From: Flavobacterium sp. LMO8
GTDB taxonomy: Bacteria > Bacteroidota > Bacteroidia > Flavobacteriales > Flavobacteriaceae
Direction of reading: 5' to 3'
Assembly (NCBI RefSeq): GCF_009495755.1
Contig: NZ_WIBJ01000015.1
Location: 1-64,000, forward strand
DNA length: 64,000 nt
Positions 28,614 to 31,748 of the stretch are shown here, one piece after another (position 1 is the first letter of the stretch; the number at the start of each line of letters is the position of its first letter). The notes under the pieces are model-generated. The model was not told the origin of the DNA. It saw nothing but the letters and a program-made list of their open reading frames with translations, and made no database searches. A program made the translations under genes and the position numbers.

Positions 28614-29219
28614 ATGGCTTTTGAATTACCACAATTACCTTATGCATACGATGCATTAGAACCACATATTGATGCGAGAACAATGGAAATACATCATTCT
28701 AAGCACCACAATGCATACGTTACCAACCTAAACGCTGCAATTGCTGGAACTGATTTAGAAGGAAAATCTATTGAAGAAATCATGAAAAATTTGGACATGA
28801 ACAATATGGCAGTTCGTAACAATGGTGGTGGACACTATAATCACACTATGTTCTGGGAAATTATGTCGCCAAACGGCGGTGGTTTACCAACAGGTGAATT
28901 AGCGACTGCTATCGATGCTGCATTTGGTTCATTTGACACTTTTAAAGCAGAATTTTCTAAAGCAGGAGCTACTCGTTTTGGTTCAGGATGGGCTTGGTTA
29001 TGTGTGAAAGATGGTAAATTAGAAGTTTGTTCTACCCCTAACCAAGACAACCCATTAATGCCAGGTGTGGCGTGTGGTGGACAACCAATCTTAGGAATGG
29101 ATGTTTGGGAACATGCTTATTACTTAAACTATCAAAACAGACGTCCTGATTATATGGAAGCTTTCTTTAATGTAATTAACTGGACAGAAGTTGCAAAACG
29201 TTTTGCTGCAGCGAAATAA
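28614..29219 (+). CDS. Superoxide dismutase (Fe/Mn type)
   Basis: Converts superoxide to oxygen and hydrogen peroxide. Metal ligands His27 (MEIHHSKHH), His77 (GHYNHTMFW), Asp163 and His167 ([10 protein letters not shown]) are present. Length (201) is standard. Gln near 145-147 in NQDN and the GWAWL block do not let me decide between iron and manganese with certainty. No signal peptide, so it is cytoplasmic. Monocistronic, with a clear promoter and terminator. Confidence 0.95.
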
Positions 29220-29237
29220 TTAAAATAAATAAAAATT

Positions 29238-29273
29238 AAAAAAGGCGAGGATTTTAAAATCTTCGCCTTTTTT
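29238..29273 (+). terminator. Terminator of superoxide dismutase
   Basis: AAAAAAGGCGA/TCGCCTTTTTT stem with an inner GATTTTAAAATC palindrome. Confidence 0.9.
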
Positions 29274-29293
29274 GTTACCAAGTTTATTAAAAT

Positions 29294-29367
29294 AAAAAAG
29301 GTGAAATTTCTTTCACCCTTTTTGCCCCAAATCTACCATAAAACTTAACCTACTAATTTTCTGGTAG
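29294..29367 (-). ncRNA. Candidate small RNA, copy 1
   Basis: About 74 nt. It starts at CTACCAG, forms a hairpin closing CTACCA with TGGTAG, passes through ATTTGGGGCAAAAAGGG and ends in a terminator. In this copy the terminator stem is GGGTGAAA/TTTCACC, unlike the other copies, yet fully paired. The -7 element TACTTTAG is at 29377-29370. Confidence 0.6.
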
Positions 29368-29501
29368 AGCTAAAGTAGAACGGTAAATTGTATCTGACTA
29401 AAAAAATTGTTGAATAACACAAAAACTCGATGAAATGCATACTTAAAAAACAAATCAGTTGTTTTTTTATTTTTTTCTAACAAGTGTCTAAACTTTTGGA
29501 T

Positions 29502-29574
29502 AAAAAAAAGGCACGCATTGCGTACCCTTTTTGCCCCAAATCTACCATAAACTTAACCTCTAATTTTCTGGTAG
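29502..29574 (-). ncRNA. Candidate small RNA, copy 2
   Basis: Same layout. The hairpin loop is two bases shorter (29541-29574). The terminator stem is GGGTACGCA with TGCGTGCC (one G-T type wobble), followed by eight T. The -7 element TACTTTAG is at 29584-29577. Confidence 0.6.
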
Positions 29575-29697
29575 TACTAAAGTATAGTGAGATTTTGTAT
29601 TACTATAAAAAAATTGTTAAACGAAATAAAAAGTCGATGAAATGCATATTTTGCAAAAAAACAACTTCTTTATTAAAATAAAATCTGATTTTGGAAT

Positions 29698-29773
29698 AAA
29701 AAAAAAGGCACGCATTGCGTACCCTTTTTGCCCCAAATCTACCATAAAACTTAACCTACTAATTTTCTGGTAG
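29698..29773 (-). ncRNA. Candidate small RNA, copy 3
   Basis: Core hairpin identical to copy 1 and terminator identical to copy 2. The -7 element TACTTTAG is at 29783-29776. Its upstream promoter region begins directly at the end of the PurF-like gene. Confidence 0.6.
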
Positions 29774-29849
29774 TACTAAAGTATGGTGAGATTTTGTATT
29801 ACTATAAAAAAATTGTTAAACGAAATAAAAAGTCGATGAAACGCACTTT

Positions 29850-31748
29850 TTAGTATGCACGAGCATCTTTACCTTCATAAAAATTCATGAATGCTCGGTT
29901 TACTACACGATTTCCTCCGTCAGTTGGATAATCTCCTGTAAAATACCAATCGCCTAAATTCTTCGGACAAGCAATGTGTAAATCTTCAACTGTTTGATAA
30001 ATGATTTTTACTTCTGCTTTTGTGTTTTCTGGGGTAAGCATTTGGGCAATTTTATCAGAAATTTCTTGATCCGTGAAAGATGCATAAATCTCTTTTACAT
30101 AATTCACTACATCAGCATCACTAAAATCTTCTTGTGCTTTTGATTTTTGATATACTTCATCGACTATATGATATAGATTACGCTCTCTCAATAAATCTAA
30201 TGCTGCTTTAAAGGCTACTAATCCTTCTAGTTTCGCCATGTCAATTCCGTAACAATCTGGGTAACGAATTTGAGGTGCTGATGAAACCACGACAATTTTC
30301 TTAGGATTTAATCGGTCCATCATTTTAATGATACTTTGCTTTAAAGTTGTTCCTCTTACAATACTATCATCAATAATTACTAAATTATCGGTTGGTTTTA
30401 CCACACCATACGTTACATCGTATACATGTGCTACTAAATCATCGCGACTACTATCTTCAGTAATAAACGTTCTTAATTTAGCATCTTTAATCGCAATTTT
30501 TTCCGTTCTGATTTTTACTGAAAGTAATTCTTTCAAGGTATCTTCCGTCAATGTATCTTTTTGCTCGATAATTGCTTTGGCTTTTCTTTGATTTAAAAAA
30601 TCCTGAGCCGCTTCTGACATTCCGTAAAACGAGGTTTCTGCCGTATTTGGAATAAAAGAGAAAACCGTATTGTCAGTATCGTTATCGATTGCCTTTAAAA
30701 CACTTGGAAATATTAATTTTCCTAATTCTTTACGTTCTTTATAGATTTCAGCATCGCTTCCACGAGAAAAATAAATACGCTCAAACGAACATGCTTTTTT
30801 GATTAACGGCGTTCTTACTTCCTGAACCGAAATATTTCCGTTTTTCTTAATAATGATAGCACTTCCTGGAGTTAATTCTTGTACTTTTTCGAAAGGTACA
30901 TTGAAAACCGTTTGAATTACCGGACGTTCTGAAGCGACTACTACAATTTCATCATCTTCGTAAAAATACGCAGGACGAATTCCTGCAGGATCGCGCAAAA
31001 CAAACGAATCGCCATGACCAAAAAGTCCAGCCATTGCATAACCTCCATCGAAATTACGTGAAGCACGTTCTAAAATGCGTTGCACATTTAATCGTTCGCC
31101 AATAATTGGAGAAGCTTCTTGTTTAGAAAAACCTTCTAATTTGCATTGTTTGTATAATTCGGTAACCTCATCATCTAAGAAATGTCCGATTTTTTCCAAT
31201 ACGGTAACAGTATCGGCCATTTGTTTTGGATGTTGTCCTAAGTCAATTAAGTTTTGAAACAACTCCTTTACGTTAGTCATATTGAAATTTCCCGCAACAA
31301 TTAAATTTCGGTGCATCCAATTGTTTTGACGTAAAAATGGGTGAACACTTTCGATGCTGTTTTTACCGAAAGTTCCATAACGAACGTGACCTAAAAACAC
31401 TTCTCCCAAATATGGAATATTTTGTTTTTGAAGTGCCACATTGTTTTGATATTCTGGATGTTCTTCTAACTCACGACTGATTCTGTCGTTAATTTGAGCG
31501 AAGATATCCTTAATAGGTTGCGGGTCGTTTGAACGAATACGGCTGATGTATCTTTCGCCTGGATTTACATCCAATTTAATACTCGCTAAACCCGCTCCGT
31601 CTTGACCGCGGTTGTGTTGCTTTTCCATAAGTAAGTACATTTTTTGTACACCATAGAAAGCGGTTCCGTATTTTTCTTTATAGAATTCTAACGGTTTTTT
31701 TAATCGTAGTAATGCAATTCCACATTCGTGTTGTATAGCGTCACTCAT
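29850..31748 (-). CDS. purF: Amidophosphoribosyltransferase-like enzyme (long PurF form)
   Basis: 632 residues, longer than ordinary PurF (about 500). An N-terminal Ntn glutaminase begins at Cys9 after the propeptide MSDAIQHE, with HNRGQDGAG and GHVRYGTFG motifs. A C-terminal phosphoribosyltransferase domain carries the PRPP loop VIIDDSIVRGTT (near residue 440). The expected reaction is PRPP plus glutamine to phosphoribosylamine, the first step of purine synthesis. Bacteroidota often encode both a short and a long PurF homologue, so this may be a specialised paralogue. The extra length is mainly at the C-terminus, containing YFTGDYPTDGG. Gene symbol assigned by homology class only. Confidence 0.8.
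   Translation of the reverse strand: MSDAIQHECGIALLRLKKPLEFYKEKYGTAFYGVQKMYLLMEKQHNRGQDGAGLASIKLDVNPGERYISRIRSNDPQPIKDIFAQINDRISRELEEHPEYQNNVALQKQNIPYLGEVFLGHVRYGTFGKNSIESVHPFLRQNNWMHRNLIVAGNFNMTNVKELFQNLIDLGQHPKQMADTVTVLEKIGHFLDDEVTELYKQCKLEGFSKQEASPIIGERLNVQRILERASRNFDGGYAMAGLFGHGDSFVLRDPAGIRPAYFYEDDEIVVVASERPVIQTVFNVPFEKVQELTPGSAIIIKKNGNISVQEVRTPLIKKACSFERIYFSRGSDAEIYKERKELGKLIFPSVLKAIDNDTDNTVFSFIPNTAETSFYGMSEAAQDFLNQRKAKAIIEQKDTLTEDTLKELLSVKIRTEKIAIKDAKLRTFITEDSSRDDLVAHVYDVTYGVVKPTDNLVIIDDSIVRGTTLKQSIIKMMDRLNPKKIVVVSSAPQIRYPDCYGIDMAKLEGLVAFKAALDLLRERNLYHIVDEVYQKSKAQEDFSDADVVNYVKEIYASFTDQEISDKIAQMLTPENTKAEVKIIYQTVEDLHIACPKNLGDWYFTGDYPTDGGNRVVNRAFMNFYEGKDARAY

Follow-up and report, generated by a model that had tools for sequence, protein, structure and literature searches.

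Bacteria are known to carry families of small RNAs (sRNAs) whose near-identical members share one kind of regulated promoter, and for Qrr, csRNA and LhrC both the regulators and the targets are known. All three are listed as multicopy sRNAs in a description of FopS from Bacteroides thetaiotaomicron (PMC11697453). FopS itself is described there as a set of 14 paralogous RNAs, each about 65-70 nt long, with a seed that spans the start regions of susC mRNAs; the RRM protein RbpB both binds and opposes them (PMC11697453). Few sRNAs have been studied in the abundant Flavobacteriaceae; our literature search surfaced Rfp18 of Flavobacterium psychrophilum as a functional sRNA, from a transcriptome study that describes it as structured, conserved in the genus, affecting metalloprotease mRNAs and having a third stem-loop, three or more in all (PMC9723704). 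On the side of transcription, regulators of the LytTR type are reported to recognize imperfect direct repeats that sit just upstream of the core promoter and are separated by about 12 bp, or in a minority of cases by 11 or 13; CCGTTCATC is given as an AlgR site at rhlI (PMC6193735, PMC4064291).

The window analysed here is a stretch of 64,000 nucleotides from Flavobacterium sp. LMO8 (contig NZ_WIBJ01000015.1, positions 1 to 64,000). On its minus strand, at 29294-29845, it carries three tandem, near-identical units between convergent purF-like and sodA genes, the name purF being our reading of Pfam amidotransferase domains. Each unit begins with a repeat TTTCATCGA, followed 20 bp on by a second repeat, GTTTAACAA or ATTCAACAA, and after a further 29 bp by the box TACTTTAG; downstream of the box come a hairpin CTACCA...TGGTAG, the linker ATTTGGGGCAAAAA and the unit's own terminator. 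The constant linker of all three predicted RNAs is AUUUGGGGCAAAAA, and the string between CTACCA...TGGTAG and the terminator is ATTTGGGGCAAAAAGGG in each copy. The direct repeat spacing is 207 and 199 nt. As a repeat family of 124 nt, the units show 70% and 85% identity between the reference copy and the two others. With the 5' end placed at CTACCA, an assumed start, the predicted RNAs are 73-76 nt long. The features are as follows, in window coordinates.

29850..31748, minus strand: purF-like amidotransferase gene, conserved neighbour (Pfam GATase_6/GATase_7)
29813..29841, minus strand: direct repeats of the copy 3 promoter, TTTCATCGA and GTTTAACAA, at a 20-bp interval (sequence, period test)
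29776..29783, minus strand: copy 3 -7 box TACTTTAG (position and conservation, 133 copies)
29698..29773, minus strand: copy 3 predicted sRNA, 76 nt (5' end assumed at CTACCA)
29739-29773, 29725-29738 and 29698-29729, minus strand: copy 3 hairpin 1, linker and terminator (sequence, folding)
29614..29642, minus strand: direct repeats of the copy 2 promoter, TTTCATCGA and GTTTAACAA (sequence, period test)
29577..29584, minus strand: copy 2 -7 box TACTTTAG (position and conservation, 133 copies)
29502..29574, minus strand: copy 2 predicted sRNA, 73 nt (sequence, folding)
29542-29574, 29528-29541 and 29502-29532, minus strand: copy 2 hairpin 1, linker and terminator (sequence, folding)
29407..29435, minus strand: direct repeats of the copy 1 promoter, TTTCATCGA and ATTCAACAA (sequence, period test)
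29370..29377, minus strand: copy 1 -7 box TACTTTAG (position and conservation, 133 copies)
29294..29367, minus strand: copy 1 predicted sRNA, 74 nt (sequence, folding)
29333-29367, 29319-29332 and 29294-29323, minus strand: copy 1 hairpin 1, linker and terminator (sequence, folding)
28614..29219, plus strand: sodA, iron/manganese superoxide dismutase gene, conserved neighbour (sequence, neighbour comparison)

A sequence-only reading of this DNA had already described a triplicated cassette, each unit with TACTTTAG, a CTACCA/TGGTAG hairpin, a constant string and a terminator, and we find the same. It was also right that the terminator stem of copy 1 (GGGTGAAA/TTTCACC) differs in both halves from that of copies 2 and 3 (GGGTACGC/GCGTGCC). 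We can add that two bases are missing from within hairpin 1 of copy 2 and that conservation extends about 60 nt upstream of TACTTTAG, into the promoter repeats.

We identified the RNA in 91 of 101 genomes of the genus, 87 by BLAST of copy 3 (E <= 0.01; one to seven copies each, among the matches listed) and four by covariance model and eye. The model, R1, was built from 52 distinct copies (62 seen) and at E <= 0.01 matched seven of the 14 BLAST-negative genomes; inspected by eye, G024, G033, G055 and G087 have divergent copies, and the core is absent in G018, G027 and G084. Across the family, matches at E <= 0.01 came from 322 of 397 genomes, which cover 201 of 237 genera; a few of them are near the limit and perhaps due to chance. 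There was no accepted match in 10 of the 101 genus genomes and 75 of the 397 family genomes. At the level of the order, matches at E <= 0.001 were found in six of 79 genomes, all in the window's genus. The 70 genomes in that set from other families gave no match, and neither did G230, G273 and G418, which belong to the same family and to two other genera. In the class, 28 of 198 genomes matched, four belonging to the genus and 24 lying outside the family; the best of these 24, at 5.4e-7, lacked the conserved core on reading, and the others were at 1.7e-4 or weaker. Searches spanning more than 40 genomes used stricter filters, so that weak copies may be missed. A pattern scan of named genomes had Flavobacterium in the title of 68 of the 80 loci listed. 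The proposal of a tandem multicopy family of RNAs of about 75 nt is supported by the genus and family counts, and also by the folding and terminator covariation given below.

Homologues of both purF and sodA occur at 60 of these 80 named loci, with purF alone at 13, sodA alone at 3 and neither at 4. Among 27 loci from other genera, examined with 1.5 kb flanks, 25 have both neighbours and two have neither, and the four divergent-copy loci tested all have purF and sodA homologues. Because these neighbours recur across loci, the array is ancient and mostly kept in place. The stress link that had been suggested from the adjacent superoxide dismutase gene found no support: sodA is convergent and simply the usual neighbour on one side, as purF is on the other, and its start region ranks only 413th among 694 for pairing with the linker (purF ranks 520th), and we set a superoxide connection aside. 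Directly 3' of sodA, at 29238-29273, there is a strong 18-bp inverted repeat, AAAAAAGGCGAGGATTTT/AAAATCTTCGCCTTTTTT, which looks like a possible terminator usable from both sides.

Given its occurrence in 201 of the 237 sampled genera, its several copies, its fixed locus and its almost unchanging core, the array RNA likely matters to the cells that carry it, yet it matches no Rfam family. The array could make post-transcriptional control in this family directly testable.

The predicted RNAs fold better than expected by chance. In six foldings (three RNAs, two lengths each) z ranged from -3.29 to -4.65 against dinucleotide shuffles, and the folding energy was equalled by at most one shuffle in 200. 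Across 52 distinct copies, 96.3% of cells are paired in the terminator and 88.9% in hairpin 1. Cells changed on both sides number 25, whereas shuffles gave 6.7 +/- 2.1 and none of 500 shuffles reached the observed value. All 25 fall in the terminator, where covariation had been claimed from the three copies of the window and now holds across relatives. No clear excess was seen in these 52 copies in the number of pairs with two-sided change (4; 89 of 500 shuffles as high) or of pair types (15; 235 of 500). Hairpin 1 has no two-sided change in the 52 copies because its 3' arm is nearly fixed.

For the wider fold set we used 131 copies, the 133 available minus two without the anchor string. Hairpin 1 is present in the lowest-energy fold of 126 of them, and in only 71 is most of the linker unpaired; the folds took in some 10-20 nt upstream of the assumed 5' end. 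The expectation that the hairpins would be preserved in homologues is supported. A divergent subfamily at the same locus keeps the promoter repeats (by eye), the UUUUGGGG..CAAAA linker, UAGUA..UUA and GGUA, and has hairpin 1 rebuilt from other bases. The almost invariant G-rich linker sits between the two hairpins; the linker first, and then the loop, are the likely working parts of the RNA.

Upstream of the RNA, the -7 box is prominent in an alignment-wide view of 133 distinct stretches from genus and family loci, as are two T-rich blocks that carry A/C tails. The stretches contain no clear -33 element, which fits activator dependence. The word TT(C/T)(A/G)(A/T)C recurs at a distance of exactly 20 bp in 60 of the 133 promoters, where shuffles gave 2 at most. 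It recurs at 41 bp in 11 promoters, against at most 1 in shuffles, and some promoters therefore have a third repeat. Two 9-bp direct repeats with an 11-bp spacer, upstream of a core promoter, correspond to the layout of a putative LytTR-type site. In promoters controlled by AgrA, AlgR and HdrR/BrsR, too, direct repeats of 9 bp are found just upstream of the core promoter, separated by roughly two turns of the helix (PMC6193735, PMC4064291), and the likeness extends to the CCGTTCATC string, which is found in several Flavobacterium copies. The spacer of LytTR sites is usually 12 bp, the 11 bp of the array being a minority value, and the array repeats precede sRNAs, unlike those of the LytTR-controlled promoters compared.

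The genome has six LytTR genes, and the array repeats are absent from the fetched flanks of all six loci. Genome-wide, the repeat pattern has seven matches, three of which are the sRNA promoters; since a reversed control gives two, the remaining four are weak leads. The pattern precedes two genes with signal-like protein starts, at C30:617934-617959 (L237) and C30:476229-476254 (L236), and at L237 a third repeat is followed by a TATTTTTG box. The two genes are possibly members of the same regulon as the sRNAs.

Own promoter, conserved structure and intrinsic terminator, the features by which bacterial trans-acting sRNAs are recognized, can all be predicted for each unit. We hold with moderate confidence, the parts being taken jointly, that the array holds a trans-acting sRNA of about 73-76 nt in three tandem copies, each with a promoter and a terminator of its own, and that this sRNA belongs to the core genes of the Flavobacteriaceae. 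The presence of several copies, the promoters of activator type, the pair of hairpins and the constant G-rich stretch are all consistent with a base-pairing sRNA. Our best reading is of a multicopy, activator-controlled RNA of that kind which would work like Qrr or like FopS, a precedent from the same phylum. Like Qrr, csRNA and LhrC, the array combines multiple near-identical sRNAs with a shared, probably regulated kind of promoter; it is unrelated to them in sequence and phyla. In the mechanism we propose, a LytTR-type (AlgR-like) regulator would bind the repeats and turn all copies on together, with the copies adding dose. The RNA would then pair through the GGGGC linker, the UAGUAGGUUAA loop or both with mRNAs near their start codons and block translation, and the single RRM_1 protein would perhaps modulate its action. 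More tentatively, there may be an unnamed core sRNA regulon in which a LytTR two-component system drives the sRNAs at the purF-sodA locus and the UUUGGGGC linker serves as a shared seed or protein decoy controlling surface or secreted proteins; such a regulon, which we regard as possible but doubtful, would do for flavobacteria what Qrr and FopS do in their own hosts.

Targets were sought in 400 and then 694 start regions from the window and a further 740 kb, about 29% of the genome. At -40..+10, linker pairing at <= -12 kcal/mol was found for 34 genes against 16.1 +/- 5.7 (0 of 150 dinucleotide shuffles as high), and at <= -14 for 11 genes against 4.3 +/- 2.7 (4 of 150 as high). When CAAA was left out of the seed, the 694 start regions showed no excess, with 33 genes at <= -11 against 32.7 +/- 9.0 and 11 genes at <= -13 against 8.2 +/- 4.0 (10 of 60 shuffles as high), the 60 shuffles here being mononucleotide ones and so a different null from that of the first test. 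Because the excess is absent with this seed, we do not claim enrichment of linker targets. The promoter -7 box has the consensus TAnnTTTG, and TTTG, a part of the linker complement, belongs to it as well; the -7 box may be the cause of the apparent enrichment. The loop gave no pairing excess over shuffles in the start regions, and for the 3' arm any excess is slight at best (at <= -9, 41 genes where shuffles gave 28.7 +/- 11.4; 11 of 60 as high).

In the 101 genus genomes, TTTGCCCCAAA followed by ATGA within 14 nt has 45 matches (two overlapping), compared with 22 for the reversed pattern. Ten of the 30 sites fetched begin a frame of at least 100 codons, and in some of these ten the TTTG resembles a -7 box. 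A candidate site is the TTTGCCCCAAA just before the gene C30:76187, which by eye resembles a secreted subtilisin-type peptidase. In the 694 start regions (those of the window and of L248-L284), CCCCAAA occurs at -40..0 in five genes and, in each of six other position intervals, in 0 or 1 genes, a cluster that possibly reflects transcription start sequence rather than pairing.

The missing target excess with the seed lacking CAAA would also agree with a decoy, in which the G-rich linker or the loop titrates an RNA-binding protein such as RRM_1 and the copies provide dose rather than base pairing. The near-invariant single-stranded motifs, present in several copies, point the same way, as do the one RRM_1 protein in the genome and the binding of FopS RNAs by RbpB (PMC11697453). 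We nevertheless consider a decoy rather unlikely. Classical protein-sponge RNAs bear the binding motif more than once, unlike the array RNAs, in which each motif occurs only once per molecule.

If the array RNA is a base-pairing sRNA, as we prefer, it might belong to a described family. An Rfam model search gave no match at the gathering score anywhere in the window. Flavo-1, the motif singled out for comparison by the sequence-only reading, is not among the 70 weaker Rfam matches listed for 29200-29900, which we judged to be chance. In the main texts of the open-licence literature searched, five core strings of the array RNA family led to three unrelated papers, and the family itself was not found. 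This is a real, widespread multicopy family of predicted sRNAs outside Rfam; its kind is known, and the family itself appears new, Rfp18 having been compared by description only.

Rfp18, which is implicated in protease control, or another Rfp RNA of unpublished sequence might be the same molecule. The array RNAs and Rfp18 are alike as structured sRNAs conserved in the genus Flavobacterium, and the effect of Rfp18 on metalloprotease mRNAs (PMC9723704) could be seen as favouring identity, to which we assign a small probability. The three or more stem-loops of Rfp18, as against two in the array RNAs, set it apart by description.

The position of the array 3' of purF, in the same orientation and with three terminators, could mean that the units are stacked terminators or a purF 3' UTR insulating the convergent purF and sodA genes, without any regulatory RNA. 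Such a role would not need a fixed linker, a fixed hairpin loop or phased promoter repeats, yet these are kept family-wide, and the divergent subfamily keeps the same elements. We think an insulator quite improbable.

Returning to the reading as a base-pairing sRNA, the closest system in outline is FopS/GibS of Bacteroides, which shares with the array the multicopy habit, a size of about 65-75 nt, an intrinsic terminator and an RRM protein in the genome; some array-family copies also share UUCAUGGUA and GAUUU/AGAUUU. Identity of the two is very unlikely. The FopS model RF04319 scores 18.5 bits on copy 1 and 16.5 on copy 3 against a gathering score of 56, so we did not file the array RNA under FopS; none of 41 family genomes has a match over the cut-off, and the genome's best match, at 21.4 bits, lies outside the array. 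FopS genes are dispersed single copies with canonical promoters, whereas the array has tandem copies and phased repeats, and the GGGGC linker of the array RNAs is absent from FopS. FopS targets the start regions of susC; for the array RNA, the 694 start regions gave no pairing excess with the seed lacking CAAA, and individual genes may still be targets.

A tiny peptide encoded from ATGGTAGAT is suggested by an ATG and the same seven codons in most of the 133 copies, and we rejected it as extremely unlikely, since in 73 copies a stop codon follows after 5 to 20 codons, in 60 the frame runs off the examined stretch, and the endings, through the terminator, are unrelated, and since the divergent subfamily has ACGG at the position of that ATG.

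Some variation in the RNA was noted in other genera. Many of the loci L044-L068 have two adjoining RNA versions that share a constant 5' arm, ACCATAAC, and differ in the 3' arm, which is GTTTATGGTAG in one and GTTCATGGTAG in the other; the C version of the 3' arm would pair without wobble to a CCAUGAA start region. An extra copy is present near 1856 in L045 and near 1659 in L059, with GGGACGAAA in place of GGGGCAAA as linker and the usual promoter repeats absent, which we read as a decaying or differently controlled paralog.
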